A stretch of DNA of 37,644 nucleotides from a virus. Shown in pieces: positions 1 to 37,644 of this stretch. The translations under genes and the position numbers were made by a program. The first letter of the stretch is position 1, and each line of letters begins with the position of its first letter. The stretch spans positions 1 to 37,644 of the IMG/VR virus record IMGVR_UViG_3300045927_000142, one strand, 5' to 3'. Below the pieces are notes generated by a model. The model was not told the DNA's origin. It did no database searches and was given only the letters and a program-made list of their open reading frames with translations.

Positions 1-2194
1 CCTCGAACGAACCTTTCATCTTCTCCGCAATGTTGAACTCGGTGTAGATGCCGTCCTGGTCCGCGAACTCACTGAGCACCTGCAGCTCGATCTCTTCCGA
101 GATCCAGGCACACCACGGCCCGAGCGAATCCTGGTAGAGCTGCTTATGCTGTTCCTTGACGTTGGAGTTGTGGACGACGACGCCTTCCGCAATGAAGGAA
201 TGCGTGCCGTCCACGGTCAAGTCATACACGAGTTCCTGACGCGCCTGGTGATCGATCCGCACAATGGCGGAGAGTTGCGTCGTCTCACTCGCGAATCCGC
301 GGCCCCCCTGCCACGGATAGCGGCTGCCTTTGCGGGCGAAGGGCTGGCCCGCCGCCATCCGGCGTTGATACTCGGGCGTATGTGACCCGATCCGCCGATT
401 CGCGCCCGGATCCGAGCAGGTGAAGTTCCACTGAGAGAACGTGGCCATCCGGCCCGTCGGTAATCGTGTCTGCCCCCGTTGCTCCCGCAGGTTCGTCACG
501 GGCACCCCGACACTGAGGCAGAGATGCCAGATTTGTGAGAGCAACGGGCGACTGCACGAACTGAAGCTCAATCGCCCCAGGCGATCGCAACTGCCATCGG
601 CATCGAGAAATCCGCGCAGCAGCGCGAGACGATGCGTCGCCGGCAAGCCGAAGATCCAGCCCGGCACGCGCTTGGTGCGCGCGGTCCCGCTGAATCCCAG
701 CCGATCGAACTCACGCCCCACCGCAACGGACATCACCCGCGTCTGCCGGCCGCCTTCGATCAGATGCACGGGGCCACGAGTACCCGGGAGCTGATCCGGC
801 AGAAGCAGATCCTGCAACGTGCGGCGATACGCCGCCATGTACGGGGCGTGTTCGCCGCGCGCGATCTGGAGACCCACGGGCTCCCCGTGGACGCAGGTCA
901 CGTTCCCATCGCCGAGCAGCAGCCCACAGAGTTCAAGGAATCCCTCCGTGGCCAGCCGTCCCGAGGGCAACCGGACGGTCGCCTCCTCAAGGGTCGGCAG
1001 TTGACGGAGCACCACGATGGTGTCCCCCACCTGGAGTTCGCCCGCCGGGACATACTGCGTGACCCACTGCTTGTGAGGCCGGCCGAGGGCGCGACGGTGC
1101 CCATCCGCCATCACCACGACCGGCGCCGGCTGCAGGACGGCGCGACGGGCCAGCACGCGATGCCGGCCATTGAGCCGCAGCGTGCGGTTGCCCGTATGCA
1201 GGCGCAAGATCTCGTCCTGGCCGGTACACCCCGATCGCGTCACCAGACTCAACGTCCAGTCGCCGGCCTCGGTCAAACTCCACACGCGATCGCCACGGCG
1301 AACCTCTGAAATCGGCCGCGGGCCCTCCTCGGTGAACACTTCGGTCTCGCCCGGCAGACAGAATGTCGCGTGGTCGAGAATGCCCACCATCGGCTGCGGA
1401 ATGTGATACGCGGCCGCACATTCCTCGCGCGACAACTTGCGCGCGCCGATGTATTCCGACTCTCGAGCCGAGTGCGAAACGGGCCGGAACGTCATGCCCT
1501 CGTCGAGCACCGGCGTCATGCCCGCGTTCGCGACGCCCGAGTACCGCATCTGCCACTGCTCGCGGAACGCCTGCTTCTGCTCGGGCGTCCACGGCTTCGC
1601 CGTCGCCGGCCGTTCGATGATGCCCTCGAACCGCGCCGCGTTCGTCCAGTACGCCGCCCGATATGCGGACGCCGCCGACTCTTCCGCCAGCGTCTGTCGC
1701 AAGGTTTCGATCGGTGAGAGGCCGCCGATCGGATCGTCAGGATTGAAACCGTGAAAGTAGACCACCGACGATGGGTCCAGCTCGCGCGGCGGCTTGTTGT
1801 CCGGCACGTACCAGAAGAACGCATCGGGCCGCAGCCAGCCCGACACTTCCACGGTCTCCGGCGGGAGTCGCAGTAACCCGAGGCGACCCGTCCGCTGGTC
1901 CTTCACCTTCAACCAGAACGCGCAAAAGTAGATCCCGAGGTCCTGCATCAAACTCTCGAACAACTTGTAACGGGTGACCCCCGGAAACGGGTGATTGATC
2001 GTCTGCTGCAACTGATGGTCATGCGCACGCAATCGGTCCGTGTCCGACACGCGACGAAACACGTGCAACCCGAGCTGCGCCAGGTTTCGTGCGAGGAAAT
2101 CCACGCAGATCCGAATGTTCGGTTGTGTCCGATAGAACGCCGCGTAACTCGCGGCCGACCACGGCGTGTGCGTCGCCGTCGCGTAACTGTTCAC
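1..2194 (-). CDS. HK97-type portal protein interrupted by an intein (3' end off the window)
   Basis: The portal forms the dodecameric ring at the capsid vertex through which DNA is packaged. This copy starts at a GTG at 2194 and stays open to base 1, where it leaves the window without a stop. Its extein parts match the complete portal at 36365-37582 almost residue for residue. Between Phe (codon 1361-1363) and Ser (codon 164-166) lies an in-frame insertion of exactly 398 codons that is absent from the other copy. Removing it restores HATF-SNVKEQHK as in the uninterrupted copy. The gene lies directly downstream of the terminase block on the same strand, as usual for HK97-like head modules. Seen directly: the open frame, the clean insertion and the near-identical flanks. 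Inferred: that this is an allele of the same locus and not a second portal gene. Confidence 0.9.
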   Translation of the reverse strand, partial: MNSYATATHTPWSAASYAAFYRTQPNIRICVDFLARNLAQLGLHVFRRVSDTDRLRAHDHQLQQTINHPFPGVTRYKLFESLMQDLGIYFCAFWLKVKDQRTGRLGLLRLPPETVEVSGWLRPDAFFWYVPDNKPPRELDPSSVVYFHGFNPDDPIGGLSPIETLRQTLAEESAASAYRAAYWTNAARFEGIIERPATAKPWTPEQKQAFREQWQMRYSGVANAGMTPVLDEGMTFRPVSHSARESEYIGARKLSREECAAAYHIPQPMVGILDHATFCLPGETEVFTEEGPRPISEVRRGDRVWSLTEAGDWTLSLVTRSGCTGQDEILRLHTGNRTLRLNGRHRVLARRAVLQPAPVVVMADGHRRALGRPHKQWVTQYVPAGELQVGDTIVVLRQLPTLEEATVRLPSGRLATEGFLELCGLLLGDGNVTCVHGEPVGLQIARGEHAPYMAAYRRTLQDLLLPDQLPGTRGPVHLIEGGRQTRVMSVAVGREFDRLGFSGTARTKRVPGWIFGLPATHRLALLRGFLDADGSCDRLGRLSFSSCSRPLLSQIWHLCLSVGVPVTNLREQRGQTRLPTGRMATFSQWNFTCSDPGANRRIGSHTPEYQRRMAAGQPFARKGSRYPWQGGRGFASETTQLSAIVRIDHQARQELVYDLTVDGTHSFIAEGVVVHNSNVKEQHKQLYQDSLGPWCAWISEEIELQVLSEFADQDGIYTEFNIAEKMKGSFE
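167..1360 (-). mobile_element. Intein with LAGLIDADG homing endonuclease inside the portal gene
   Basis: A 398-residue protein-splicing element. It begins with Cys1 (CLPGETEVF, block A) and ends VVVHN before extein Ser+1, so it has the penultimate His397 and terminal Asn398 of a class 1 intein. The N-terminal Hint region runs to about residue 120. Its block-B-like segment is LRLNGRHRVL, with Asn where Thr is usual and His67 kept. A two-motif LAGLIDADG endonuclease follows: LCGLLLGDG near residues 144-152 (Asp151) and LRGFLDADGS near 248-257 (Asp255). Block F is VYDLTVDGTHSFIAEG, residues 378-393. The frame has no stop and both endonuclease Asp are present, so splicing and homing are probably active. 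Known family: Hint/DOD inteins in phage packaging and replication proteins. The intein-free allele is at 36583-37644. Confidence 0.95.
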
Positions 2195-2240
2195 GCTCCG
2201 CGCGGCCGGCTTGTCACCGACTCGTTGGAATGAGCCGAGA

Positions 2241-2492
2241 CTACGAACGATCGGCATCAGGAAAGACCTGGATGAAGGCGACGTTCGCGCGATCGACGTG
2301 CACCTCTCCGTCCATCGGAGAACCCGCACGCCCTTCCTGCGGTTTCCACTCAGACACGCGCCGCAGCACGAGCCAGCGTCCACGGCTGCACCACAGCACG
2401 CCGTGCAGACCCATGTCGGGAGATTTCAGATTGACGACGACCGTCCGCAGCAGACTAGGCGGACGCCACCAGGTCAACCACGTCCAGTCCAC
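2241..2492 (-). CDS. Small hypothetical protein upstream of portal
   Basis: 83 codons from a GTG. The product begins with an aromatic, Trp-rich stretch and continues as a beta-like region (TVVVNLKSPDMGLHGVLW) followed by alternating hydrophobic residues. I recognise no domain. It lies between the ribbon-helix-helix gene and portal on the same strand, with 47 bases to the portal start. That position suggests co-expression with the packaging genes; the start choice is uncertain. Confidence 0.6.
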   Translation of the reverse strand: MDWTWLTWWRPPSLLRTVVVNLKSPDMGLHGVLWCSRGRWLVLRRVSEWKPQEGRAGSPMDGEVHVDRANVAFIQVFPDADRS

Positions 2493-2957: not shown

Positions 2958-4646
2958 TCACCAAACTACCACGAGGTCCGGGTCTTCCGCCGGCGGCACG
3001 GACGTCGCCCGGAGCATCAGGTTCCACGCAATCGCCAGGGCAATCACCGGGTCGATGCGCCCTCGACTCTTTTTCTTCACCGGATAGATGTTGTCCTTCC
3101 CGTCGCGCTGCACCACGGCATTGCCCACGCAATACAGCATCAACGGGTCATCCTGCGCGTCGACCTGGCCGGCGAGCACCGCCGCCTCGAGCGCCAAGCA
3201 CCCGCTCGACATCGCCTGATAGGACTGCGCCACCTCGAGAATCTCGTCCTCCGCGAACCCGTCGTCCTGCACCAACTGCGTCACGAGCTGGTCCGCGTGC
3301 CACGGATCGAACCCCACCTTCACGATCGTGGCGTGCGTGCGCAGCCACACCAGCGTCTCGCGAATCACCCGGTGATCGATGCGGGTGCCCGGCACCGTGC
3401 GCAACCACCCGTCCTCGACCCACTGCGGATAGGGCGCACGGTCGCGCAGGCCACGCTCGGCCAACGTCTCGTCCGGTGTCCACATCCAGCGGAGCGTGCG
3501 CCACGTGTCATGGTGCTCCGTCGGCGGAAACAACGCGACCAAGGCCATCAGGTCATTCTTCGCCGCCAGATCGACGCCGACGTAACAGGACTCCCCCGCG
3601 AGGTCTTCGTAGGTCCAATCGGTGTGCTGGCCACGTCGCCAGCCGTCGAGTGACAACCAGGGCGAGCTGGCCATGATCCACAGGTTCAGATGCTTCTGTT
3701 TGTACGCGGCGGCCGCACCTGGCATCCCGAGCGCCTTGATCACTTTGTTCTTCAGGTCGTCCGGCTTCACCGATACGCCGTAATTGGGATTCGCTTTCCG
3801 CGCCGTCGCTTCCGTCGTCCAATCGTCCTCCGGGTCGGCGTGCGCAATGAACGCGAAGTACGTCTCGTCCACCAGCGTGCGTTCCAAAATCTGGCACGCA
3901 TAATCGTGTTCCTGGCCCCCGGGCGACACCGGATTGTCGCCGGCCGTCGTGATCTTGAAGACGAGCGGCTGCCGACGCGCGCCCGTCGCCGTCTCGAGCA
4001 CGTCGATCATCCCGCGATCTTTGTAGGCGTGCAGCTCGTCCAGGCTGATGAAGTGCGGGTTCAGCCCATCCGTCGAGTCTTCATCCGCGCCCAGCGGCTC
4101 CAGCTTCTGCGCCGTTTCCTCGCGGTGCAGGTTCACCGTCAACACACTGATGCGCGAGCGCAGACCGCTCGACATCACGAGCCGCCGGCAATCGCTCCAC
4201 ACGATCTTGGCCTGGTCGCGCTTCGTGGCCGCGCAGTAGCCCTCGGCTCCTGGCTCTCCGTCGAAGAACGTCAGATAGAGCGCCATCACCGCGTCTTCGA
4301 GCGACTTGCCTTGCTTGCGCGGCAGCTCGTTGTAGGCGTGCCGGAATCGACGGAGCTCGGTCTCGACGTGGACCCACCCGACAATCGAGCCGAGGCGGAA
4401 CTGCTGATGCGGTTCCCACCGGATGAATTGTCCGGCCCACTCGCCCTTGTAGTGTTTCAGCCGCTCACCGAACCGCAGGAAGCGCTCGACCCGCGCGAGG
4501 TCCAGGCGGAACGGAAACGCGCGCGAGTCCTCGGCCTCGCGATCGCGCAGGTGCCGCGCACACGCGAGCCGATGGTACTTGCCGGCCGGAATCCGCCCAC
4601 GTGTGACGTCTCGCGCGTATGCGTCAATCGGATGTCGCCGCCTCAT
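2958..4646 (-). CDS. terL: Terminase large subunit (TerL), HK97/Terminase_1 type
   Basis: ATP-driven DNA-packaging motor and headful nuclease; it docks on the portal. From Met at 4646 (MRRRHPIDAYA, the usual beginning of this family) the protein is 562 residues. Visible parts: the N-terminal ACARHLRDRE motif; a deviant Walker A (RKQGKS, about 110-115); Walker B with catalytic Glu (ISLDELHA, Asp203 Glu204); coupling motif ITTAG near 232; and the RNase-H-like nuclease acidic residues at GVDLAAK (Asp359), FDPW (Asp447) and RGRIDP (Asp532). The frame is open for 31 more codons upstream (to 4739), but those are low-complexity and overlap a possible antisense gene, so I prefer 4646. It is followed closely by small genes and portal. 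Confidence 0.93.
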   Translation of the reverse strand: MRRRHPIDAYARDVTRGRIPAGKYHRLACARHLRDREAEDSRAFPFRLDLARVERFLRFGERLKHYKGEWAGQFIRWEPHQQFRLGSIVGWVHVETELRRFRHAYNELPRKQGKSLEDAVMALYLTFFDGEPGAEGYCAATKRDQAKIVWSDCRRLVMSSGLRSRISVLTVNLHREETAQKLEPLGADEDSTDGLNPHFISLDELHAYKDRGMIDVLETATGARRQPLVFKITTAGDNPVSPGGQEHDYACQILERTLVDETYFAFIAHADPEDDWTTEATARKANPNYGVSVKPDDLKNKVIKALGMPGAAAAYKQKHLNLWIMASSPWLSLDGWRRGQHTDWTYEDLAGESCYVGVDLAAKNDLMALVALFPPTEHHDTWRTLRWMWTPDETLAERGLRDRAPYPQWVEDGWLRTVPGTRIDHRVIRETLVWLRTHATIVKVGFDPWHADQLVTQLVQDDGFAEDEILEVAQSYQAMSSGCLALEAAVLAGQVDAQDDPLMLYCVGNAVVQRDGKDNIYPVKKKSRGRIDPVIALAIAWNLMLRATSVPPAEDPDLVVVW

Positions 4647-8899: not shown

Positions 8900-9227
8900 C
8901 GGTCGTCTCTCGCACCGTCGTGGCCGAGTGACACCGATGGCACTTGGCCTCGAGGATTCCACGGTCGAAGAACACACGCGGGTCGCCGTGATGCTTCACC
9001 CGATGGTGCACGTCTACCGTCGGATGTCCGCACGGAATCCCATCGCCGCGACCCGGGCAGCGCGGTTCTTCAGCGAGCACACGCGCGCGCAGCTCGCGCC
9101 AGCGTGCCGTGCGATACAGCCGGCGGATTTCAAAATTCGGGCGCGCGTGGTCAGCGTCAACCTGGTGCCGCGCACACCGGCCGCGCGGAACAATCTTCGA
9201 GCAGCCAGGCACCGCGCAGTATCGCAT
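8886..9227 (-). CDS. HNH endonuclease
   Basis: 113 residues from ATG 9227 (MRYCAVPGCSKIVPRGRCAR), whose A is shared with the stop of the previous gene. It has an N-terminal Cys pair, RCPGRGDG and a Cys, then VDVHHRVKHHGD (the first H of HNH) and ILEAKCHRCHSATT (the final Cys pair with His). Free-standing HNH proteins of this size often sit near terminase and help generate packaging termini; here it is 3 kb upstream of TerS. A homing role is an alternative. Confidence 0.8.
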   Translation of the reverse strand: MRYCAVPGCSKIVPRGRCARHQVDADHARPNFEIRRLYRTARWRELRARVLAEEPRCPGRGDGIPCGHPTVDVHHRVKHHGDPRVFFDRGILEAKCHRCHSATTVRETTDARR

Positions 9228-9436
9228 CAGCGCCCCGGCTGAACGGCCTTGCGGCGGTCGTCGATCGTCCAGGTCGTCGGCCACTTCGTACGATGGCCCA
9301 TGCGCATGAACTGCTCGACGGAAATCATCGGGCCACACCGTCGCCGGTGATCGTCAATCACCGCATTGTCGACCGCTGACCAGCCGTACCACGCAGCTCC
9401 GCACGAGCAGAAGATCGCGACGCGCGGGGCCTTCAT
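9227..9436 (-). CDS. Small Cys-containing protein, paralogue of the domain at 19713
   Basis: 69 residues from ATG 9436 (MKAPRVAIFCSCGAAWYGW). The sequence IFCSCGAAWYGW, AVDNAVIDDH, RRRCGPM and later KWPTTWT matches the N-terminal part of the rightward frame at 19713 almost residue for residue. The CxCG...C pattern with a DH pair suggests a small metal-binding fold. Its stop shares a base with the HNH start. Function unknown. Confidence 0.7.
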   Translation of the reverse strand: MKAPRVAIFCSCGAAWYGWSAVDNAVIDDHRRRCGPMISVEQFMRMGHRTKWPTTWTIDDRRKAVQPGR

Positions 9437-13391: not shown

Positions 13392-14153
13392 TCATGAGAC
13401 TTTCGCCCGAGGTATACTTAATCGACGATTAAGTATACTTTTGCGTTTCTTCACCGAGATCAGCGTGATTCCCCAATGCTTCGCTAAGGCCTTTTCATTG
13501 CCCTGAAACGTCGCGAGATCCCGCGCCCATTGTTCATGGTTTCCCGGCGGCCGACCGTCACGCTGGCCGGTGCGCTTTCGCAATTCATCAATCACGTAGC
13601 GGATTTCGGTCGCATTACTGGTCCGCCGCACAATGCTCTCGACCAGGTGGTCGAGATGCGCGCGTCGATCCCGCACGGTCCGTCGACGCCGCTCCTGGGC
13701 CCGTTTCTCAAACGTGAGGCCGATCTTGGCGCGCGTAATCGCGCGACTCCCAACGGGGTGCTTTCCCTCCGTCCACCCGTGGCGCGACCAGGAGGCGGTC
13801 AAGCTGTCCGCCGCATGGGGATGGGCGGCGATGACGGCGTCAAGGGATCGGCGATAGCGGGTCTGACCCGTGCGCGACCGATCCATCGCGCTCGCCAGTT
13901 CGCTTCGTTCGTCCGGTGTCACATAGAAGCGCGCGACATCGTGGGCATCGACCGCTTGCAGTGCCAAAAAGTAATCAAATTCGCCAGGCTGAAACTGATA
14001 GACGCCGGTCGCGTCCCGGTAGTGGCGCCAATTCGCTGACCGCAACATCGCCATCGTCGCGTGCGTCAGCTCCCCGAGGCGGCCCATATTGGGGACGGCG
14101 CGTGCGAAGCGGTCGACCTGCTCGCCGTGCAGACGGAGCGCTTTGGTGTTCAT
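13392..14153 (-). CDS. Unknown protein coupled to the HNH-helicase gene
   Basis: 253 residues from ATG 14153, overlapping the helicase stop (ATGA), so the two are almost certainly made together. Mostly helical and basic. N-terminal half: RFARAVPNMGRLGELTHATM, an aromatic patch around YRDATGVYQFQPGEF and YFLALQAVDAHD. A strongly basic helix follows (FEKRAQERRRRTVRDRRAHL). The C-terminal end, WARDLATFQGNEKALAKHWG followed by ITLISVKKRK, resembles a helix-turn-helix. A 27-base perfect palindrome lies in its last codons. No family recognised; DNA binding is likely. Confidence 0.7.
   Translation of the reverse strand: MNTKALRLHGEQVDRFARAVPNMGRLGELTHATMAMLRSANWRHYRDATGVYQFQPGEFDYFLALQAVDAHDVARFYVTPDERSELASAMDRSRTGQTRYRRSLDAVIAAHPHAADSLTASWSRHGWTEGKHPVGSRAITRAKIGLTFEKRAQERRRRTVRDRRAHLDHLVESIVRRTSNATEIRYVIDELRKRTGQRDGRPPGNHEQWARDLATFQGNEKALAKHWGITLISVKKRKSILNRRLSIPRAKVS
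13412..13438. repeat. 27-bp perfect palindrome within the 3' end of a coding region
   Basis: GTATACTTAATCG, a single A, then its exact reverse complement: 13-base arms with a one-base centre, AT-rich in a GC-rich genome. It lies about 20 bases before the stop of the gene at 13392-14153 and encodes the symmetrical peptide SILNRRLSI. No T run follows on either strand, so it is not an intrinsic terminator. A dimeric regulator site is the simplest reading; the HTH-like end of the same gene's product is a candidate binder. Confidence 0.85.
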
Positions 14154-16261
14154 GATTCGTCTGCCGTTTGCGCCCAGCGCGGCAACGGCGTCCCCGTGTC
14201 CTGGCAATACCGACGAATGCGCTCCAGAGCGACCATCCGGGCGCGCTGGAGCTGGTCCGGTGTGGCATCGTCGAGTTTACGAATGCTGGCTTGCCGGTAG
14301 ATGTCGGCAATAAAATGGTCGACCGGTTGCCCGCCGTGCTTCGCTGGAAACTGCGCCCACCAGCGACTCGCCAAGATCACCTGCTGTCGAATCAGGGTGT
14401 GATGCTCGCGGGCGGTCAACGGCCGCGTCTGGGGTGCTGGCCGATCGACGACCGCCACGGGCCGCACAGCCCCGACCGCGATCGGTTGATCGAACGGGCG
14501 GGCTCGATTGTACCGATCGAGGAACTCCGCGAAGCGCGGCCAGAGCGATTCCGGGAGATTCAGGTCGCGGAGGATGGGCGTCAGCAGATCCTGCACTGCC
14601 GGATCGATATCGAACGTGCCGGCCGTCGTGATCGCCGACACGACTTCCAGCGCGGCATCGCGCACCCCGACGAGATCCTTATCAGGAAATCCGGGACCTT
14701 CAGGTCCTTGGGGTCCACGAGGTCCCTCCGGTCCTGGCGGCCGGACTTCAATGTCATGGACCATCGGCGCCAGGATGTTCGTAAATTCCTGGATCAGCTC
14801 CGGGATATCCGGCAGGATGATCGCCGTCGTCAGCGGATACCCGAGCCGCTCACGTTCCCACGTCGTCACTCGTTGCCCGCGCGCCACGACCTGTCGGATG
14901 TACTGCGCCGTGAGGACGTTGGTGGCATAGGTCACGACGCAAATGTCCGGACAGTCATAGCCTTCGCCCGCCATCCCCACTGTGCAAAGCACGCCCACGC
15001 GGGTCTTTTTGCGGAAATCTTCGAGACGCCGGTACGCGTCCTCGCCGTCATCGGAGACCACGCATTCGGCCAAAGGCTGTAACCGGCGCGCGACCATCTG
15101 CTGATCGACTTCCTTCGCGAAGGCTCTCGCCATGTCCTGACGATGCGTCACAATCAGCGCCTTGACCGGGGCGCCGCGACTGTCTCGATAGCGGCGTTGG
15201 AGCTGATCGAGTGTGACGGCCACTAATTGTGTGATCCATTCGTCGCGCAGATTAAGACGGCGAAGGGCGACACGTGCCGTGTCATCGGTGAGATCGGCGA
15301 TCGCCGTCTCGGTGACTTCCGCGGTCTTGAGATCGACGATGTCGACCGTCGCGCCCACCCGAAAGAGGTCCGGCGGCCGCAAGAGACCTTCGCGCACCAG
15401 CCGTTCGGAATGAATCGCGTAGGTCGCAATGGCCTGAATGCGTGGCTCCCCATGTTCGCCGACGACATCCTCGTATTGCACGGTCGAAATACGTTCGGCG
15501 GGTGAGGTGCGGAACAGCGTCCCGGAGAGATTCAGGACGTGGACATTGAGTCCTGTCCGCAAGTCCCCCACGAGTTCGCGGATGGTTTTTGCCCAGGCGG
15601 CGCCGCCGGTGTCGTCATTGACTGGCTGTCCGAGATGGTGGACTTCATCGAGAATCACGAGTGTCGACGTGTCGCGGAGGGCATCGCGATGCCGTTCACG
15701 AACCGTGGGTGTGAGTAGGCCCTGGTACGTGGTACACACGCCATCCATCCGGCTGAGTTCGCGCCCGCTGCCGCGGGCTCCCTCATGCACGTCGAGGGCG
15801 ATATGACAGTCGTTCAGGAGCGCCTTCGCCCATTGATTCACGAGCGGCACGCGTGGGACGACGACGAGCACGCGGCTCCACAGCGCCGCGTCTTGTCCGA
15901 CCGCGAAGACGTTGCCGGCGAAGAGTGTCTTTCCGCCACCTGGTGCCGCCATGACGGTCGCGACGCGCTGCATCGTGATCGCTTCCAACACGATCGCGAG
16001 CGCTTCCTCCTGCCAGGCCCGCAACTGGACCCGCGTGTCCCGGACATCTCGATTGCCATATCTGAGATTGCACGGGGCACACCAAGCCTCGAGATTCGAC
16101 ATGATTGGCGGCCCGCCGTGGCTCGCCGCGCGGAGATGCGCGACGTGAAAGGTCTCGAGGTCGATAGGTGCCTGGCAGCCTTGCCGTTGGCACTGGCTCC
16201 CGCTCAAAAAGAACAGTTGCCGGCGGTCACCGGGGGAAATGCGCCGAGAATACCGTGACAT
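14150..16261 (-). CDS. HNH nuclease-SF2 helicase fusion with a collagen-like linker
   Basis: 703 residues. Residues 15-75 form an HNH/zinc domain: Cys24, Cys29, HVAHLRAASHGG (His39, His42), NLEAWCAPCN (Cys61, Cys64). A superfamily 2 helicase follows: AAPGGGKT (105-112), DEVH (205-208), SGT (246-248), TVGMAGEGYDCP (428-438) and QVVARGQR (457-464). Residues 508-526 are Gly-X-Y collagen-like (PGPEGPRGPQGPEGPG). A helical C-terminal domain of about 175 residues remains unassigned. The layout recalls restriction-type or defence helicase-nucleases more than a replicative helicase. It lies next to the integrase, the usual place for accessory cargo, and is coupled to an unknown basic partner. A role in defence or superinfection exclusion is inference. 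Confidence 0.85.
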   Translation of the reverse strand: MSRYSRRISPGDRRQLFFLSGSQCQRQGCQAPIDLETFHVAHLRAASHGGPPIMSNLEAWCAPCNLRYGNRDVRDTRVQLRAWQEEALAIVLEAITMQRVATVMAAPGGGKTLFAGNVFAVGQDAALWSRVLVVVPRVPLVNQWAKALLNDCHIALDVHEGARGSGRELSRMDGVCTTYQGLLTPTVRERHRDALRDTSTLVILDEVHHLGQPVNDDTGGAAWAKTIRELVGDLRTGLNVHVLNLSGTLFRTSPAERISTVQYEDVVGEHGEPRIQAIATYAIHSERLVREGLLRPPDLFRVGATVDIVDLKTAEVTETAIADLTDDTARVALRRLNLRDEWITQLVAVTLDQLQRRYRDSRGAPVKALIVTHRQDMARAFAKEVDQQMVARRLQPLAECVVSDDGEDAYRRLEDFRKKTRVGVLCTVGMAGEGYDCPDICVVTYATNVLTAQYIRQVVARGQRVTTWERERLGYPLTTAIILPDIPELIQEFTNILAPMVHDIEVRPPGPEGPRGPQGPEGPGFPDKDLVGVRDAALEVVSAITTAGTFDIDPAVQDLLTPILRDLNLPESLWPRFAEFLDRYNRARPFDQPIAVGAVRPVAVVDRPAPQTRPLTAREHHTLIRQQVILASRWWAQFPAKHGGQPVDHFIADIYRQASIRKLDDATPDQLQRARMVALERIRRYCQDTGTPLPRWAQTADES

Positions 16262-16286: not shown

Positions 16287-17531
16287 TCACGCGGATTCCT
16301 TCTTCACGACGAGGTGCAACACGGCGGCGGGCTTCACGGGCGACTCGGGGCACCAGGCGAGGCGCATCTTCGCCACGGCCTCGGCGACGAGCTCCGGCAC
16401 AGCGGACTTCAGATACTGCTCGGTCGTCTTGATGTTGCTGTGCTGCGCGTACTTTTGCGTGGCATAGATGTCCTTTGACTGGCGCAGCAGCTCGGTCAAG
16501 AGACTGTGCCGGAGATCGTAGGGACGGCAGTTCTTCGGCACGGCCACGAGGAACTGCTCGAGGAGCTCGGTTTCGCCCCCGTCGCGCAGTTCGCGCTCGA
16601 CCCGCGTGAGCGCGCGCTGCCACGCCTCCCGCGGCGACGACTGGGCGAACCGGCCCCACAACCCCGCCGCGTCGAAGTCGCGGAGCGCCGCCACGGCCGG
16701 CGGGAGCAGGTCGACCCACTGCCCGGCCGCGCCGGTCCCCTTCTGTCGCGGCGGCTGATAGAGCTTCTCGTCGCGGAAGTTCACGTGGCGGCGTTCCAGC
16801 CGCATTAAGGACTTCGGCGGCAACCCCGTCCACGCCATCACCCGCAGGCGAATCTTCGTCGCGCTGACCCGCGACCGCGGCTGGCCCTTGATGGATCGCC
16901 CGAGATCCGCCAAGGCGGCGAGCAGCCGCATGACGATCGGGATCGGGATGGCGCGCGGCTCCGGCCGGCGTGGAGGGCCGACCGGCCCGATCTGGTCCGT
17001 CGGCAGGGCCACATCGAGATCGCCGTCGGGGTTGAGCTCGCGCTCGAGGACCTTTGCGAGCGCGCGACGGCGATGCTTCACCGTGGAGACCGAGAGCTTC
17101 GCCTTCCGCCAGGCCAGCAGTTGCTCCCGCACGTGCGCGCGGCGGATCTGCTCGAGCGGGATCGCCGCCATGGGCTCCCGCCGCCACGCCGCCAGGAGAC
17201 ACCGCAGATCCTCGATGGGGCGATCGGCATCCGTGATCGGGGGGGATGGCTTCGGATGATCGGCCATCCAGCGATCGATCGCCGCGCCGAGCGTCCCGGC
17301 CGCGCTGCCGTCGGTGGCCCGTTGGCGGCGCAGATCCTCGAGCAGTTGCAGACGACACTTCACGAGCTCGCTACAGTTCTTCTTCGAGTAGGGAATGCCG
17401 TCGTCGTCGACGAGGGGAAATCGGGCGCGCGCTTCCCGCAGCGCGGCGCCAGATCCAATGCGGGCCAGCACGGTCACACCGTGCGCGTCGAGGTAGAGCC
17501 CCTGGCCGATGGTCTGCCGGGTGCGCGTCAT
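16287..17531 (-). CDS. int: Tyrosine-type integrase
   Basis: 414 residues. Catalyses site-specific insertion and excision between attP and attB. N-terminal arm-binding and core-binding helices span about residues 1-190. The catalytic domain begins near 195: KIRLRVMAWTGLPPKSLMRL (226-245), RPYDLRHSLLTELL (336-349, Arg341 His342), YAQHSNIKTTEQYL (361-374, His364 and nucleophile Tyr373). The first catalytic Arg, normally in TGLR, is replaced here by Pro, as in its degraded relative at 11812. Its stop lies 25 bases before the helicase start; upstream it overlaps the coiled-coil gene by ATGA. No attP core could be identified by eye. Confidence 0.9.
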   Translation of the reverse strand: MTRTRQTIGQGLYLDAHGVTVLARIGSGAALREARARFPLVDDDGIPYSKKNCSELVKCRLQLLEDLRRQRATDGSAAGTLGAAIDRWMADHPKPSPPITDADRPIEDLRCLLAAWRREPMAAIPLEQIRRAHVREQLLAWRKAKLSVSTVKHRRRALAKVLERELNPDGDLDVALPTDQIGPVGPPRRPEPRAIPIPIVMRLLAALADLGRSIKGQPRSRVSATKIRLRVMAWTGLPPKSLMRLERRHVNFRDEKLYQPPRQKGTGAAGQWVDLLPPAVAALRDFDAAGLWGRFAQSSPREAWQRALTRVERELRDGGETELLEQFLVAVPKNCRPYDLRHSLLTELLRQSKDIYATQKYAQHSNIKTTEQYLKSAVPELVAEAVAKMRLAWCPESPVKPAAVLHLVVKKESA

Positions 17532-18450: not shown

Positions 18451-18750
18451 ATGTCGCAACCGGCGCCCGTCACCGACCTCGACTCGTTGCCCGTGATTCT
18501 CACCCTCAAGGAAATGTCGGCGCTCTACCGCGTCAGTCCGCTCACGATCCGGCGCGCGCTCTCGCTCGACAAATTCCGGCCACTCCCGTTCGAAAAATAC
18601 CCCTATCGCTGGCTCCGCGCCGACGTGCTGCGCGACCTCGCGACCCGCCGCCCGAAACTGCGTCAGCGCCGCCACGGCTTCGCGGCCGTCAAAGCCCGCC
18701 GTCAGGCGGCCGACGAGCAGGCCGCCGTCGCCCACGACAAGTCGCGATGA
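18451..18750 (+). CDS. Excisionase-like helix-turn-helix protein
   Basis: 99 residues from ATG 18451, preceded by GGAGGGGGA at good spacing (an in-frame ATG at 18433 lies ahead of that site and is less likely). LTLKEMSALYRVSPLTIRRA followed by a short wing (RPLPFEKYPYRWLRADVLRD) is the MerR-like winged helix of excisionase/HTH_17 proteins. A basic tail follows. As the first rightward gene, opposite the integrase operon, it could be the directionality factor or an early regulator. Confidence 0.75.
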   Translation: MSQPAPVTDLDSLPVILTLKEMSALYRVSPLTIRRALSLDKFRPLPFEKYPYRWLRADVLRDLATRRPKLRQRRHGFAAVKARRQAADEQAAVAHDKSR

Positions 18751-19265
18751 GCGGGCGGCTCGTCTCGGCCGTGTTTGAGTCGGCCCTTCCGGCCTGGCTC
18801 AAACCCTACGCGGCGGCCTATGCGTCATTCGCCGCCGACAATGGCACGCGTGTCTACCCGACCATCGGCACGATTGCGCTGATGGTCGGGCGGTGTGAAC
18901 GCTCCACGCAGTACGCCATCGCCGACCTGCGGCGGCGGCACATTCTCGAGCCCATCACCCCGGCCGGCCGCCACCAGGCGCCCCGGTATCGGTTCCACGC
19001 GGCGGGACTCCCGCAGGTCACGGACGGCGTGCAGCTTCAGTTGCTGGCCTTTTCGCGATCTCCACAGGGATTTCCACAGGCCGCGAAAAATCGGCCCAAT
19101 AAAACCGGGCCTCGATCCGCCTTTTCCACACTTTCCACAGGCAGGGGTGCAATGGGTTGCACCCCAGGGGTGCAATGGGTTGCACCCGATCCGTCAATAG
19201 ATCCTTCAGTACGTACTCGTACAACGCGCGCGCGCGCGAAGAGGACGGGCACGGAGGACCGATGA
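18747..19265 (+). CDS. Replication-initiator-like helix-turn-helix protein
   Basis: 172 residues, ATG overlapping the previous stop. The N-terminus (LPAWLKPYAAAYASFAADNG, TRVYPTIGTIALMVGR, RSTQYAIADLRRRHILEPI) is the winged-helix found in phage replication initiators and host-like HTH_36 proteins. The C-terminal third is low-complexity and its DNA holds repeated CCACA words and two hairpins, as expected when an origin lies inside the initiator gene (as in lambda O). No helicase loader follows. Confidence 0.7.
   Translation: MSGRLVSAVFESALPAWLKPYAAAYASFAADNGTRVYPTIGTIALMVGRCERSTQYAIADLRRRHILEPITPAGRHQAPRYRFHAAGLPQVTDGVQLQLLAFSRSPQGFPQAAKNRPNKTGPRSAFSTLSTGRGAMGCTPGVQWVAPDPSIDPSVRTRTTRARAKRTGTEDR
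19061..19187. other. Candidate replication origin inside the initiator gene
   Basis: Four related words occur: TCCACAGG (19061), TTCCACAGG (19072), TTTTCCACA (19122) and TTTCCACAG (19132), all close to the DnaA box TTATCCACA. They flank a short A-rich stretch (GAAAAATCGG, AATAAAAC). Two nearly identical hairpins follow: GGGGTGCAA-TGGG-TTGCACCCC (19144-19165) and its copy (19167-19187). Repeats, AT-rich stretch and location in the initiator gene fit a theta origin. Confidence 0.55.
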
Positions 19266-19708
19266 CCTCTCCTGTCACGCGACGATCGTTACTCCAACTC
19301 GGCGTACTAACCCTGACCGGCGGGCTCGTCGGCTGCGAGGATGAAATCATTATCCAGGCGCCGACCGCCCCAGAGCCGCCACCAGCGACGATCCCGGACC
19401 GGGTGGAGCTCCGGGTCATCGGCAGTTTCAGAAGCGTCACTGTGCGCCACGTGAACGCCCAGGATGGCAGCTCACGCAACGAGCGGGTCGACCTGCCCTA
19501 CTTCGCGTCGTTCACGACGCTCAGAGATTCCATGTTCATCAGTCTCGAAGCCTTTGCCGTGGGCGAAGGCTGGCTTCAGGTGCAGATCCTCGTGAACGGG
19601 TTTCTCCTGCAGGAAGCAACCAGCAGCAGCGACGACCCACGACTCGCGATCTCCGTCACGTTCCGCCACTCGGACGTCGTGCCGCCGCCGACGCCGCGCC
19701 CGGTGTAA
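19262..19708 (+). CDS. Lipoprotein with Tat-like signal peptide
   Basis: 148 residues from ATG 19262 (overlapping the previous stop). The signal TRRSLLQLGVLTLTGGLVGC has a twin-Arg motif, a hydrophobic core and a lipobox (LVGC) with acidic residues after Cys. A Pro-rich linker (APTAPEPPPATIP) precedes a beta-rich domain (VELRVIGSFRSVTVRHVN, LPYFASFTTLRDSMFISLEA). Phage-encoded lipoproteins of this size usually act at the host surface, for example by blocking receptors; that role is inference. Likely exported to periplasm or outer membrane. Confidence 0.75.
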   Translation: MTSPVTRRSLLQLGVLTLTGGLVGCEDEIIIQAPTAPEPPPATIPDRVELRVIGSFRSVTVRHVNAQDGSSRNERVDLPYFASFTTLRDSMFISLEAFAVGEGWLQVQILVNGFLLQEATSSSDDPRLAISVTFRHSDVVPPPTPRPV

Positions 19709-19712
19709 GGCT

Positions 19713-20720
19713 ATGACGCCTGAACCGAAGGTCGCCATCTTCTGCCGCTGTGGCGCGGCCTGGTATGGCTGGCCGGCGGTCGACAACGCCGTGATTGACG
19801 CCCATCGCCTGCGCTGCGGGCCGATGATCCACGCACACGAGTTTGCGCGGACCTTTAGGATTCGGTGGCCGAAGACCTGGACGCCTGACGAGTGCGCCGC
19901 CGCGTCCGCGCATCCCACGTTCAGACAACGGACTCAAGGACCTCGGAGGAACGCTATGCGAATCGGACTCGGACTGCTGATCGTCGTCGTGAGTCTCGTC
20001 TACGTCCCCCAGGCGGAGGCGACGCTCCTCCTGGCCGGGAGTGCCGGGACGGACGACTTCTGCGCCTCGGACAATAACACCGGGTGCAGCTTCGGGACCG
20101 TCCTGCTCGACCTCGACCCCACACTCGGGGTCCTCTCGCTAGCAGACGCGACGGCCGGCGGTCTCCTGGTCTCTGGCTCCTTCCATCTCGCCGTGGCCGG
20201 CCCGACCCAGAATGTGCTCGACTCGGGTTCTCTCTCCATCGTCAACACGACCGTTGCGCCTGTCACGGCCACGGTCGCCGTGGGTGCGACCGATTTTGTG
20301 GGGCCAAGCACCGCCTTCGACGCGTCCGGCAGCGGGACCTGGCTCTTTGCCGAAGGCAGCTCGATCCTCTACACCTGGTGGAATGACCCGGCCAATCAGC
20401 AGGGCGCCGAGGATCCGACCGATACCCCCGGCAACCTCTTGGATGCCTTCGTGGATGTCGCCGGGTTCGGCGTGGACTCCTTCTCCCATAACGTGGACGG
20501 AACCCTGCTGTTCCCCGATCCGAGCCTCTTTTCGATGACCCTGGGATTCCAGTTGACCTTGGGGGCGGGTGACCAACTGACCTCCCGCGGGCAGAATCTC
20601 GTCAAGCCCGTCATCCCGGAACCGGCGACGGTCACGCTCCTCAGCCTGGGCCTCCTCGGACTGGCGCGCGTGGCTCGGCGTGTCCGCCGCGCGGAGGAGC
20701 GCGCGCGTCAGTGCCGATAA
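19713..20720 (+). CDS. Secreted PEP-CTERM protein in frame behind a small Cys domain
   Basis: A 335-codon open frame. Residues 1-70 (VAIFCRCGAAWYGWPAVDNA, RLRCGPM) duplicate the protein at 9227-9436. At Met82 (19956), directly behind a strong ribosome-binding site, a typical secreted protein begins: MRIGLGLLIVVVSLVYVPQA signal peptide, a Gly/Thr/Ser-rich beta domain, and a C-terminal PEPATV motif, hydrophobic helix (LLSLGLLGLARV) and Arg cluster. That C-terminus is the PEP-CTERM sorting signal handled by exosortase in Gram-negative, exopolysaccharide-producing bacteria. No stop separates the halves. The secreted form (254 residues) is probably translated from 19956. Confidence 0.8.
   Translation: MTPEPKVAIFCRCGAAWYGWPAVDNAVIDAHRLRCGPMIHAHEFARTFRIRWPKTWTPDECAAASAHPTFRQRTQGPRRNAMRIGLGLLIVVVSLVYVPQAEATLLLAGSAGTDDFCASDNNTGCSFGTVLLDLDPTLGVLSLADATAGGLLVSGSFHLAVAGPTQNVLDSGSLSIVNTTVAPVTATVAVGATDFVGPSTAFDASGSGTWLFAEGSSILYTWWNDPANQQGAEDPTDTPGNLLDAFVDVAGFGVDSFSHNVDGTLLFPDPSLFSMTLGFQLTLGAGDQLTSRGQNLVKPVIPEPATVTLLSLGLLGLARVARRVRRAEERARQCR
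19944..19958 (+). promoter_or_regulatory. Ribosome-binding site and internal start of the PEP-CTERM protein
   Basis: CGGAGGAACGCT directly precedes ATG 19956, an ideal Shine-Dalgarno spacing. It decides the start of the secreted protein inside a longer open frame and implies two products, the fused and the secreted form. Confidence 0.7.
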
Positions 20721-21100
20721 TCGTCTATCGCGTGCAGGCAGCCGATGGCCGGGGGCCTTGGCGTCCAGGCTGGAGCCAAACATGGATTGACGGTGATGCA
20801 CCAGCCGATCGCCTCACCGAAACCGTGATGGATCTCATGCCCATCAGCCAGCTTCGCGCGCTGCCGACCACCATGATGTACGGCTCAGCCTGCCGATCCC
20901 TGGACGCCGTGCTCCAATGGTTCACATCCCTGGAGTGTCAGCGCTTGCAGGCCGCTGGCTACTACCCGGTGCGGTTGCAGGCAGATGTCGTGCTCGCGGA
21001 AAGCCCGTGGCAACTCCTCATCGGCCGCCGCCGGCCCTTCGCTGAGGGTGCGACACGACTCAGTTGGCCCGTTCGGCCGTTCGACCGCGGAGACGCGTAA
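20711..21100 (+). CDS. Conserved phage protein of unknown function
   Basis: 129 residues from GTG 20711, overlapping the PEP-CTERM stop. MPIIVYRVQAADGRGPWRPG followed by WSQTWIDGDAP is a start seen in a conserved phage family (YRVxDxxGRGPWRPGxSxxW). The middle has a CRSLDAVLQWFTSLECQRLQ helix. No catalytic motif. Real by its context and codon use. Confidence 0.75.
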   Translation: MPIIVYRVQAADGRGPWRPGWSQTWIDGDAPADRLTETVMDLMPISQLRALPTTMMYGSACRSLDAVLQWFTSLECQRLQAAGYYPVRLQADVVLAESPWQLLIGRRRPFAEGATRLSWPVRPFDRGDA

Positions 21101-21102
21101 CC

Positions 21103-21309
21103 ATGCACGACCGCATGTCCGGCACCGTGACCACACGACTCAGCGAAACAGGTGTGATCGCTGGCACCGACGGACTCAATTACCTCTTCCATCGGACGGA
21201 CGCTCCGACATTCGACCAGCTCCGCGTCGGCGTCTCGGTGTTCTTCTCGCCGTCCGGCGGGAAGAAAGGCCCGCGCGCGAAACAAATCCACATCGATCAG
21301 AGGACCTGA
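21103..21309 (+). CDS. Cold-shock-like protein with degenerate RNP-1
   Basis: 68 residues from ATG 21103. After SGTVTTRL comes SETGVIAGTDGLNYLFHRTD, then VGVSVFFSPSGGKKGPRAK. The fold and the FHRTDA and KGPRA motifs match the cold-shock-like protein at 21512-21724, but the usual RNP-1 (KGFGFI) is replaced by ETGVIAG. It may have lost canonical RNA binding or act as a partner. Stop overlaps the next start. Confidence 0.75.
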   Translation: MHDRMSGTVTTRLSETGVIAGTDGLNYLFHRTDAPTFDQLRVGVSVFFSPSGGKKGPRAKQIHIDQRT

Positions 21310-21515
21310 TGCGGATTCACGTGCGCCAGAGCGAAGACCAGATCGTCGTGTGGCTCGACCTCGAGGAGCCAGGTGATGGCGTGCCCATCGGCATCGCCAC
21401 GACCATCGAGGACGCCCTCGTCGATGCCGAGACCACGCTCTTGCTCGCGCTCCACACGCTCACGCTGACAAGCGAGACTCTCCCGGGTCCGCGCAAACCG
21501 ACAAGGCTCATGTGA
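21309..21515 (+). CDS. Small hypothetical protein between two cold-shock-like genes
   Basis: 68 residues from ATG 21309. RIHVRQSEDQIVVWLDLEEP, then IGIATTIEDALVDAETTLLL, gives a beta-beta-alpha pattern like small HicB-type folds, but without a recognisable motif. Overlaps both neighbours by a few bases, so co-translated. Function unknown. Confidence 0.65.
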   Translation: MRIHVRQSEDQIVVWLDLEEPGDGVPIGIATTIEDALVDAETTLLLALHTLTLTSETLPGPRKPTRLM

Positions 21516-21724
21516 CTACCAAGACTCTGACCGGCACGATCGAAACACTCCTGCCCGAGAAAGGCTTCGGGTTCATCGTCGGCAGCGACGGCGAAACGTA
21601 CTTCTTCCATCGCACCGATGCCGACGATTTCCCCATCTTCCGCACCGGGACCCCGGTGGTGTTCACACCAACCGTCGGCGCGAAGGGTCCACGCGCCGCG
21701 AACGTCCAGCTCCAGGAGTTATGA
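21512..21724 (+). CDS. Cold-shock (CSD) protein
   Basis: 70 residues from GTG 21512. LTGTIETLLPEKGFGFIVGS contains the RNP-1 motif KGFGFI, and ETYFFHRTDA is the RNP-2 region; the end (VVFTPTVGAKGPRAANVQL) is the usual last strand. Likely a single-stranded RNA/DNA chaperone. Paralogue of the gene at 21103-21309. Confidence 0.85.
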   Translation: MTTKTLTGTIETLLPEKGFGFIVGSDGETYFFHRTDADDFPIFRTGTPVVFTPTVGAKGPRAANVQLQEL

Positions 21725-33663: not shown

Positions 33664-34043
33664 CGCTTCGGTTTCGGAGCTGGCGGTGTCGGTGTCGCCG
33701 GCGTCGGCCTGGGCGCTGGCGGTGTCGGTGTCGCCGGTGTCGGCCGAGGCTCCGGCGGTGTCGGTGTCGGCGGCATCGGGTGATCGACCGATGGTGGTGT
33801 CGGCACGGTCGCCGCGCGAGTCACAGGCGCGCGCCGATACGTCGCCGTCGTGAACGACGGGACAGGCAGCACGCCAGTGTTCGCCGCCGCATCCTGCGCG
33901 CGCTGCCGCGCGATGAGGTCCACCCAACCAGGGCGACGAATCGGCACTTCGACGTTGCCCGCGTCGCCCTTGCAGGTGCAGAGCGGCGCGTCGCAAATAA
34001 TGCAACGCGCCGTCGTCGGCTGAAACGTGATCGCGAACCGCAT
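33660..34043 (-). CDS. Cys-pair protein with Pro-Thr repeat tail
   Basis: 127 residues from ATG 34043 (a GTG is one codon earlier). RCIICDAPLCTC gives a metal-binding-like motif, followed by VPIRRPGWVDLIARQRAQDA. The C-terminal 40 residues are a tandem repeat (PTPATPTPPAPR). Located between capsid and connector, where decoration proteins can occur; no homology recognised. Confidence 0.65.
   Translation of the reverse strand: MRFAITFQPTTARCIICDAPLCTCKGDAGNVEVPIRRPGWVDLIARQRAQDAAANTGVLPVPSFTTATYRRAPVTRAATVPTPPSVDHPMPPTPTPPEPRPTPATPTPPAPRPTPATPTPPAPKPKR
33672..33780. repeat. Tandem 36-bp repeat encoding the Pro-Thr tail
   Basis: Three near-copies of a 36-base unit beginning GGCGCTGGCGGTGTCGGTG (plus strand). 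Translated leftward they give the Pro/Thr/Ala repeat at the end of the gene at 33660. Read in the other frame on the same strand it gives a Thr-Asp-Thr-Ala repeat, a shadow. Confidence 0.75.
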
Positions 34044-35290
34044 CACACGGCGGCTGGCGTCAGTCCGCTGACCTGGCCGAACGCGGCCGGCCGATAGACT
34101 GCGAGGGCCAGCCGTTCCTCTGCGCGAATCGCAACCAGGTTCTTCACGAAGAAATCAGCGTGACTGTTCGTCGCGTCGATGCGGATTCCACCGTGTCGGA
34201 AAATCTGGCCGCCCGTTTTGAACGCGCCGACCCACCCGAACCCCTGCGGCTGATTCGGCGTGACCACGACGGGCAATCCCCACAGGTTCGCCGCCGTGAC
34301 CGATCCCGCGAACGGCCCACCGGCCAGGTACTCGCCCGTCGAGGTCTTCGACAACACGATGCCGTTCCAATTCGCCGGGTGCAGGATGTACGCATCGGGC
34401 ATCAAGAGCGAGGCCGCATACACCGTCATGCTCTGCTGAAACAGCACGTCCGCATTCGTCGCCGGGTCCACGCGCGCGAGCGTCGCCGTCAGGCCCACGC
34501 GATTCTTCAGGCCGAGAATGTTCGGTGCGATGCCGTCACCGTTCAGCACCTGGTCGTCCTCTTCGAGCTTCAGACCGAACGTCAACCGCGCGTCGACGTA
34601 ACTGCGAATCTGCGGCTCGTCCTCCAACATCTCCTCGCTGATGGGAATCCAATGCGCCAGCTTGCGCACCGGGTCCGTCGCGGAATCAAAGCGCAGCGTG
34701 GACTCGGGTTTCGCCGCGCCCTCGAGCACCGCCGCCGCCGCATTCGTGAACACCGACTCGCGCATGTACACAATCGACGTCGATGAGGTCGTGCCCTGCG
34801 CGAACAAATCCGCGACCGTCGGCGGCTGCACCGCGAGCGGCAGGATTCCCGGCTGATATTGCGGAATCAGGAGCTTGCCGCCGGAGGCCGGGTCACTCGT
34901 GATCGTCTCGGCCAGGAACTCAAAACTTGGCGTCGACCACTGCGCCTGCTGCCGGTGCAGGTGCTTGCGCACGAAGTTGTACGCCTCGGACTGCACGAAC
35001 TGCGCGCCGATGCTCAGGCTCCGACGCATCCCGCTGAAGGACGGCACGCGCGCGGTGTTCCCCGTCACGCGCTCCAACTGATGAATCAAATCGCGATCAC
35101 CCGTCGCCCGATCGAGCTGCGCTTCCAGGTCGCGGCATGACGCATTGATGCGCTCGATGTCCGCGCGCTCCGCGTCCGTCAACAGCCGATTGCCCTCCGC
35201 GTCCGCTGCTTTCGCATACCTGTCGTACAGTGCCAGCCCCTCCTGGCGCTTCGATTCAAACTCCTGCTCAAGCGTGGCGATCGTGGCCAT
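34043..35290 (-). CDS. Major capsid protein, HK97 fold
   Basis: 415 residues. The first about 110 are a charged coil (QEFESKRQEGLALYDRYAKA, DIERINASCRDLEAQLDRAT), the scaffolding delta domain removed by the protease. The capsid core follows: DPASGGKLLIPQYQPGILPL, KLAHWIPISEEMLEDEPQIR, DDQVLNGDGIAPNILGL, AYILHPANWNGIVLSKTSTG, VVVTPNQPQGFGWVGAFKT, the standard order for HK97-like capsid proteins. The start overlaps the protease by 23 bases. Confidence 0.93.
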   Translation of the reverse strand: MATIATLEQEFESKRQEGLALYDRYAKAADAEGNRLLTDAERADIERINASCRDLEAQLDRATGDRDLIHQLERVTGNTARVPSFSGMRRSLSIGAQFVQSEAYNFVRKHLHRQQAQWSTPSFEFLAETITSDPASGGKLLIPQYQPGILPLAVQPPTVADLFAQGTTSSTSIVYMRESVFTNAAAAVLEGAAKPESTLRFDSATDPVRKLAHWIPISEEMLEDEPQIRSYVDARLTFGLKLEEDDQVLNGDGIAPNILGLKNRVGLTATLARVDPATNADVLFQQSMTVYAASLLMPDAYILHPANWNGIVLSKTSTGEYLAGGPFAGSVTAANLWGLPVVVTPNQPQGFGWVGAFKTGGQIFRHGGIRIDATNSHADFFVKNLVAIRAEERLALAVYRPAAFGQVSGLTPAAV

Positions 35291-36364: not shown

Positions 36365-37582
36365 CTATGCCGCGTCCTCCGACGACACCAAGGCCTCGCT
36401 CGTCGATTCCTCCGGCGCCGCTTCACTCGGTGTCGTCTCCGCACCCATCGTCATGTTGAGCGGGGCAGCCAGGGCGTTCGCAGACGGATCGTCGTGGATG
36501 GCTGGCAGGTTCAACCGCGCGCGTCCTTCGTTCGCGGTCATGATCGGCCGGCCCACGAGTCTCGCGAGCGACACCGCCTGGTCCTCGAACGAACCTTTCA
36601 TCTTCTCCGCAATGTTGAACTCGGTGTAGATGCCGTCCTGGTCCGCGAACTCACTGAGCACCTGCAGCTCGATCTCTTCCGAGATCCACGCACACCACGG
36701 TCCCAGCGAATCCTGGTACAGCTGCTTGTGCTGTTCCTTCACGTTCGAGAACGTCGCGTGATCCAGGATGCCCACCATCGGCTGTGGAATGTGATACGCC
36801 GCCGCACATTCCTCGCGCGACAACTTGCGCGCGCCGATGTACTCGGACTCTCGAGCCGAGTGCGAGACCGGCCGAAACGTCATGCCCTCGTCGAGCACCG
36901 GCGTCATGCCCGCGTTCGCGACGCCCGAGTACCGCATCTGCCACTGCTCGCGGAACGCTTGCTTCTGCTCGGGCGTCCAGGGCTTCGCCGTCGCCGGCCG
37001 CTCGATGATGCCCTCGAAGCGTGCCGCGTTCGTCCAGTACGCCGCCCGATACGCGGACGCCGCCGATTCTTCCGCCAGCGTCTGCCGCAGCGTTTCGATG
37101 GGTGAGAGGCCACCGATCGGATCGTCAGGATTAAATCCGTGAAAGTAGACCACCGACGACGGGTCCAGCTCGCGCGGCGGTTTGTTGTCCGGCACATACC
37201 AGAAGAACGCATCAGGCCGCAGCCAGCCCGACACTTCCACGGTCTCCGGCGGGAGTCGCAGTAACCCGAGGCGACCCGTCCGCTGGTCCTTCACCTTCAG
37301 CCAGAAGGCGCAAAAGTAGATCCCGAGGTCCTGCATCAAACTCTCGAACAACTTGTAGCGGGTCACTCCTGGAAACGGGTGATTGATCGTCTGCTGCAAC
37401 TGATGGTCGTGCGCACGCAATCGGTCCGTGTCCGACACGCGCCGAAACACGTGGCACCCGAGCTGCGCCAGGTTCCGCGCGAGAAAATCCACGCAGATCC
37501 GAATGTTCGGTTGTGTGCGATAGAACGCCGCGTAACTCGCGGCCGACCACGGCGTGTGCGTCGCCGTCGCGTAACTGTTCAC
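36365..37582 (-). CDS. HK97-type portal protein, intein-free allele (complete)
   Basis: 405 residues from GTG 37582. IRICVDFLARNLAQLGCHVF, NHPFPGVTRYKLFESLMQDL, FHGFNPDDPIGGLSPIETLR, GMTFRPVSHSARESEYIGAR and EECAAAYHIPQPMVG are the ordered motifs of HK97 portals. The site occupied by an intein in the copy at 1-2194 is empty: HATF runs directly into SNVKEQHK (36746-36752). The C-terminus is acidic and Ser-rich. Placed upstream of the protease and capsid genes. Confidence 0.93.
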   Translation of the reverse strand: MNSYATATHTPWSAASYAAFYRTQPNIRICVDFLARNLAQLGCHVFRRVSDTDRLRAHDHQLQQTINHPFPGVTRYKLFESLMQDLGIYFCAFWLKVKDQRTGRLGLLRLPPETVEVSGWLRPDAFFWYVPDNKPPRELDPSSVVYFHGFNPDDPIGGLSPIETLRQTLAEESAASAYRAAYWTNAARFEGIIERPATAKPWTPEQKQAFREQWQMRYSGVANAGMTPVLDEGMTFRPVSHSARESEYIGARKLSREECAAAYHIPQPMVGILDHATFSNVKEQHKQLYQDSLGPWCAWISEEIELQVLSEFADQDGIYTEFNIAEKMKGSFEDQAVSLARLVGRPIMTANEGRARLNLPAIHDDPSANALAAPLNMTMGAETTPSEAAPEESTSEALVSSEDAA

Positions 37583-37644
37583 GCTCCGCGCGGCCGGCTT
37601 GTCACCGACTCGTTGGAATGAGCCGAGACTACGAACGATCGGCA
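36583..37644. repeat. Terminal repeat with bases 1-2256 (intein-free allele)
   Basis: Matches 1-2256 once the 1194-base intein is left out (1062 bases aligned). The first 106 bases (from 36583) and the last about 130 (to 37644) are identical or nearly so. In between there are scattered, mostly synonymous differences, densest around the intein site (11 in the 82 bases nearest it). A window closing a circle through two alleles would look exactly like this. Confidence 0.9.

Follow-up and report, generated by a model that had tools for sequence, protein, structure and literature searches.

A viral family of PEP-CTERM proteins in soil phages and its host-type promoters

The PEP-CTERM/exosortase system is common in soil and biofilm bacteria, and the role of most of its cargo proteins is unknown. 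Why, then, should a phage carry the gene for such a protein? The question is raised by a 37,644-base stretch of DNA, the whole of IMG/VR record IMGVR_UViG_3300045927_000142 (hereafter “the window”). A first-pass annotation had proposed that its open reading frame (ORF) at 19713-20720 (+), 335 aa long, encodes a PEP-CTERM protein by which a phage modifies the envelope or matrix of its host during lysogeny, and that the tag restricts the phage to hosts with an exosortase.

That the gene is phage-encoded is borne out by its surroundings. PHROGs and Pfam searches assign to the window an excisionase-like gene and a helicase as well as small and large terminase subunits, portal, and integrase (PHROGs), and an S49 protease and HK97 capsid protein (Pfam). 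The genes of most use for orientation are as follows.

2958-4646, minus strand: terminase large subunit (phrog_9)
16287-17531, minus strand: tyrosine integrase (PF00589, phrog_1)
18451-18750, plus strand: excisionase/regulator-like gene that opens a rightward operon (phrog_66)
34043-35290, minus strand: HK97-type major capsid protein (PF05065)
36365-37642, minus strand: portal protein (phrog_2662)

Judged by its integrase, terminase, portal, and capsid genes, the window phage is a temperate siphophage from soil. There are no tRNA genes and no Rfam matches in the window. Its terminase had no match in the six genomes of the host search, and all INPHARED matches to it are below 60% identity and thus too distant for host calling. 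Two related phages with terminases 70-74% identical to that of the window have the morphogenesis genes in common with it, but not the accessory region that includes the PEP-CTERM gene.

Several other features of the record deserve description. The portal gene is present at both ends, at 1-2257 (-) and 36365-37642 (-), with flanks that are 95-96% identical. The left copy is interrupted in frame after GILDHATF by about 1194 bp that match intein-splicing (just below the cut-off) and LAGLIDADG domains, and the right copy is uninterrupted. The record with its overlapping ends therefore holds both an intein-bearing and an intein-less portal allele. At 14150-16261 (-), an N-terminal HNH domain and a helicase (ResIII/DEAD) are fused in one 703-aa protein. 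Two related small genes, 45% identical, lie near each other at 21103-21309 and 21512-21724 (+), the second of which encodes a cold-shock domain protein (PF00313).

The PEP-CTERM gene and its immediate neighborhood can be divided into the following parts.

9227-9436, minus strand: free-standing paralogue of the 81-codon module below (sequence comparison)
19262-19708, plus strand: putative lipoprotein, with an LVGC lipobox assigned by eye and a predicted MmpS-like fold (sequence and structure model)
19713-19955, plus strand: 81-codon upstream module in the same frame, a Cys-containing small-protein domain outside the exported protein (paralogue in the same phage)
19945-19950, plus strand: ribosome-binding site GGAGGA ahead of ATG 19956 (sequence)
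19956-20720, plus strand: PEP-CTERM protein P0002, 254 aa, with signal peptide, beta-sandwich domain, and PEP-CTERM tail (PF07589, family alignment, AlphaFold)
19956-20021, plus strand: putative signal peptide, residues 1-22, cut at ...AEA|T (judged by eye; the family alignment begins there)
20022-20612, plus strand: mature domain, a predicted jelly-roll-like beta-sandwich (family alignment, AlphaFold)
20613-20681, plus strand: PEP-CTERM motif, comprising PEP, hydrophobic helix, and Arg cluster (PF07589 position)
20711-21100, plus strand: next gene of the operon, whose first 10 nt lie within the PEP-CTERM gene (weak phrog_1106)

The ORF had been taken as one PEP-CTERM protein. It is indeed open and its tail is real, but the exported protein most likely begins at ATG 19956, after GGAGGA, because the putative signal peptide MRIGLGLLIVVVSLVYVPQAEA, recognized by eye, has its first residue at this codon and because in the family alignment most homologues also start with their signal peptide there. 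Codons 1-81 appear to be a separate module: the residues they encode are 68% identical over 57 aa to the ORF at 9227-9436 (-) of the same phage. The internal start, this paralogue, and the family alignment lead us to reject the whole 335-aa ORF as a single exported protein.

Assignment of the tail to the PEP-CTERM class holds, although the models searched agree only in part. PF07589 matches the C terminus with 22.0 bits against a cut-off of 20.7 (26.9 bits, E 3.3e-7, in the search of the record), whereas the general NCBIfam model TIGR02595 reaches 13.8 bits, just below its cut-off of 16. The best NCBIfam whole-protein match is floc_PepA (NF033554), which covers residues 197-324 of the 335-aa ORF with 23.9 bits versus a cut-off of 80. 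The tail itself consists of PEPAT, a hydrophobic stretch, and an Arg-rich end. A six-frame regular-expression scan found only one other PEP plus K/R string before a stop, and that string comes without a hydrophobic helix. No further membrane span is present from signal peptide to tail, where residues 24-218 are predicted strands and loops with pLDDT above 90 in most blocks.

The region between signal peptide and tail had been described as a Ser/Thr/Gly-rich domain. The composition is as claimed (S+T+G account for 32.5% of mature residues), but such a composition does not mean disorder here: AlphaFold, given 63 sequences, predicts a helix (3-15), an ordered beta-sandwich, and a C-terminal helix with pLDDT 93. 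The mature domain also carries a conserved D-x-x-N-x-Q-G-A loop and a conserved Cys44. The best PDB matches of the model, by VIA, are Bd1399 (Z 9.3, rmsd 3.6, 145 aligned), SGBP-B (Z 8.2, rmsd 3.7, 134 aligned), and CBM61 (Z 8.2, rmsd 3.1, 119 aligned), and matches to CBM61/16/4 have Z of 6-8. A profile search of PDB sequences gave no significant match. The predicted fold resembles carbohydrate-binding modules, an arrangement that is common among glycan-binding modules and is no proof of binding; Z values of 7-9 may reflect merely a common arrangement.

Is the gene an oddity of one phage, or does it belong to a viral family? Close relatives of the window protein were found neither in viral contigs searched with peptide patterns nor in INPHARED phages, and a homologue from locus L102 retrieved nothing from INPHARED or PLSDB. 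The family was opened up by a degenerate DNA pattern of the tail, which, scanned over IMG/VR, identified 89 stretches; 75 of the 80 listed satisfy the tail rules, and the remaining five likewise end in PEP tails. When compared without their tails, the pattern proteins sort into families, and that of the window protein has 12 members there (best E 3e-51). A second, larger cluster of PEP-CTERM genes on viral contigs (L082-L170; 38 of the 80 pattern loci) is unjoined to it outside the tail. A profile made from ten members located relatives on 127 viral stretches, 80 of which were kept. The tail-free core HMM matches 96 of the loci examined, with one gene each, and 89 of these genes have a PEP tail by pattern. 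Removal of near-copies leaves 76 loci, of which 2 are cellular, one is the window, and 73 are further viral loci. Homologues therefore stand on about 70 distinct IMG/VR loci, which span three terminase families.

The family is kept by purifying selection. An alignment of 63 sequences has invariant columns, and dN/dS has a median of 0.18 and a maximum of 0.39 over 61 pairs, which are non-independent. Cellular homologues are few. In a scan of 84,980 species genomes at least 11 loci pass, and among the matches listed only L249, and weakly L250, cover most of the core. L249, from a Methylococcaceae MAG, has the gene close to dnaN, recF, and gyrB-like genes; in L250 it is surrounded by kinase/regulator and EPS-type genes of a host locus (neighbors named by eye in both cases). 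In whole-genome searches that scored at most 7 or 8 candidates per genome, full-length matches numbered 1 among 369 genomes of the class to which L249 belongs (L249 itself), 0 among 396 genomes of the phylum of an Acidobacteria MAG, and 0 among 398 genomes of the L250 phylum, with L250 giving a partial match. Because the scan rests on the matches listed and the searches on so few candidates, cellular homologues may be under-counted. As sampled, nearly all members of the family are viral, on contigs that represent several phage lineages.

The contexts in which these phages keep the gene are diverse. Among 48 related virus records, 26 carry a phrog_2 terminase and 7 a phrog_38 terminase, with zero overlap (a few of the matches are weak), and the window has phrog_9. 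In L102 the gene overlaps the stop of the portal gene (named by eye) by 4 nt, within a morphogenesis operon; in L205 it precedes the portal gene; and in L225 the terminase gene follows two genes later. A further secreted protein, as a rule bearing a PEP-type tail, is encoded one or two genes downstream in 16 of 76 loci. Such a second PEP-CTERM-type gene is present in L129, L184, L193, L207, L230, and others, several with overlapping stop and start. PF07589 was found in none of 80 records with terminases related to that of the window, so the gene is no fixed feature of this phage group. Together with an accessory region that the two related phages described above do not have in common with the window, this is as expected of a moron.

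Lysogenic modification of the envelope fits the window phage, which has an integrase, but does not extend to the family. A tyrosine integrase was found in 5 of the 48 related records, which may be fragments, and not in the other 43. Because of this count and of the morphogenesis-operon position in L102, lysogenic conversion cannot account for the family as a whole. As to the proposed host restriction, none of the 48 virus records encodes an exosortase, which would leave these phages reliant on that of the host, and both cellular genomes with a homologue have an exosortase, in two copies each. It is plausible that the tag limits the host of the window phage to exosortase bacteria.

The putative lipoprotein gene beside the PEP-CTERM gene has homologues in 8 viral records, several seemingly of one phage group, and PF07589 is present in 5 of these 8. 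A sixth record, L294, breaks off in a truncated gene whose family is that of the PEP-CTERM protein of L292. The PEP-CTERM partners belong to different families. The lipoprotein has no Pfam family at E 0.05. A model built from nine sequences (pLDDT 81) matches MmpS5 (9mvz_A) with a VIA Z of 13.8 and an rmsd of 1.5 Å over 91 residues.

Upstream regions provide a further link to the host. Proteobacterial PEP-CTERM genes were described by Haft et al. 2006 as preceded by a motif 1 that ends in TTTACA, a spacer (mean 62.8 nt, range 32-92), and a sigma-54 site, followed by about 71 nt to the start (PMC1569441). After omission of L249, L250, and loci with less than 150 nt upstream, 68 of the 76 loci could be compared. 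A sigma-54 site, with no more than one mismatch allowed, is found in the 150 nt upstream of 13 of these 68 viral family members versus 6 of the 1367 other genes in these loci (Fisher 4e-14), and the composite of TTTACA and sigma-54 site precedes 19 of 68 versus 1 of 1367 (Fisher 9e-26). Dinucleotide shuffles yield the composite 0.13 times on average and at most once in 60 rounds. It is also found upstream of 5 of 56 PEP-CTERM genes outside the window protein's family.

The spacings of the viral module are in helical phase, with a period of about 10.5 bp. Once three near-copies are dropped from 24 values, the remaining 21, five of which come from PEP-CTERM genes outside the family, cluster at 40-42, 50-53, 62-63, and 84 nt. 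Their resultant at 10.5 bp is 0.86, a value not reached by any of 100,000 uniform sets, although shared ancestry weakens this figure. In small cellular control sets, with starts set by a simple rule and 60 nt of downstream slack allowed, the module precedes 8 of 20 PEP-CTERM genes from Proteobacteria-side loci (spacings 53, 63, 64, 74, 75, 84, 85, and 94) and none of 10 from the phylum of an Acidobacteria MAG. On a tree of 67 rows, after nine truncated, fused, or odd rows of the 76 were dropped, the promoter label changes 11 times, 9 of which are forced by starred branches; the promoter cases are not independent.

The TTTACA and sigma-54 module is absent upstream of the window gene itself and from every one of the 11 rows in its subclade. 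No sigma-70 promoter was found between 17400 and 21300 of the window, and the gene is part of the early operon that runs rightward from the excisionase-like gene, where it stands beside the putative lipoprotein gene. Given the missing module, the window gene is probably under phage control, and the host of this phage may lie outside the Proteobacteria.

We favor, with a probability of roughly 0.6, the reading that this is a phage-borne accessory gene, or moron, whose product uses the export and sorting machinery of the host to reach the surface or the exopolysaccharide (EPS) layer, where it may alter adsorption. The protein would be exported by Sec and cleaved or anchored by the host exosortase, and would end up at the cell surface or in the EPS layer. 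There, more speculatively, the modeled beta-sandwich might bind a glycan and thereby change adsorption by other phages or progeny, through superinfection exclusion or receptor masking. Perhaps the lipoprotein acts in the same envelope module. With the same degree of confidence, we propose that a family of exosortase cargo dedicated to viruses is spread over diverse soil phages and that many of them place it under the host PEP-CTERM enhancer and sigma-54 promoter of the PrsK-PrsR regulon. The viral surface protein would then be made and sorted in step with the exopolysaccharide program of the host, so that viral expression is gated by the matrix-building state of the cell.

One possible but more tentative alternative is that the protein joins the matrix and, like host PepA-type proteins, helps infected or lysogenic cells, perhaps also virions, to flocculate or to stay in the matrix, rather than masking receptors. 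Host PEP-CTERM genes do function in floc formation (PMC9850573), the promoter module links relatives to the host EPS regulon, and floc_PepA is the best whole-protein match, though below its cut-off. However, this match is confined to the C-terminal half, and the window copy is outside the host promoter module. We regard as unlikely a late or lytic-cycle role, with the protein made during infection to aid release or to stop progeny from re-adsorbing to debris. The many records lacking a tyrosine integrase and the positions in L102, L225, and L205 would suit such a role, but the window gene is grouped with early genes, and in relatives under sigma-54 control expression would follow the physiology of the host rather than phage timing.

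It is also conceivable, but very improbable and already disfavored by the data, that the gene was recently captured from a host and has no phage function, or that viral contigs were misassembled and the gene is a piece of host sequence in them. Host DNA may be present in some IMG/VR contigs, cellular homologues do exist in L249 and L250, and some relatives retain host-type promoters. Against this stand the purifying selection, the recurrence of the gene in distinct phage contexts, including the overlap with the portal gene, and the near absence of full-length homologues from the sampled cellular genomes.

A cargo family kept by phages under selection makes one PEP-CTERM role testable, namely surface modification relevant to phages. 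For uncultured phages, the family also gives a hint of host range: the host should have an exosortase and, if the gene follows the TTTACA and sigma-54 module, should belong to the Proteobacteria. The promoters suggest, moreover, that phages tap a two-component EPS regulon of the host. Phage surface morons are known already; what is of interest here is the viral PEP-CTERM family and its host-type promoters. In the portions of the open-access full-text literature available to us, including PMC12642866 and PMC4886054, we found no description of phage-encoded PEP-CTERM proteins.

Compared with known systems, the window protein is close to the PEP-CTERM/exosortase (EpsH) cargo of Gram-negatives (Haft 2006, PMC1569441), with which it shares a putative signal peptide (assigned by eye here), PEP tail, helix, and basic cluster, and a tail that is the sole Pfam domain. 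A subset of the viral relatives also shares motif 1 and the sigma-54 module. In contrast to that cargo, the viral proteins are encoded by phages in which no exosortase was detected, frequently within phage operons of several genes, and the window copy lacks the regulatory module. PepA (NF033554) aligns with the tail and part of the C-terminal half, but by its score the window protein is not a member of that family. The predicted fold of the neighboring putative lipoprotein resembles that of mycobacterial MmpS, whereas sequence identity is only about 19%. Among phage proteins, the comparison is with Ltp of TP-J34, which acts in superinfection exclusion (PMC3952083). Ltp is a lipoprotein of a Streptococcus phage and no exosortase substrate; what the two would have in common is that each is a phage-encoded exported surface protein expected at the host envelope.
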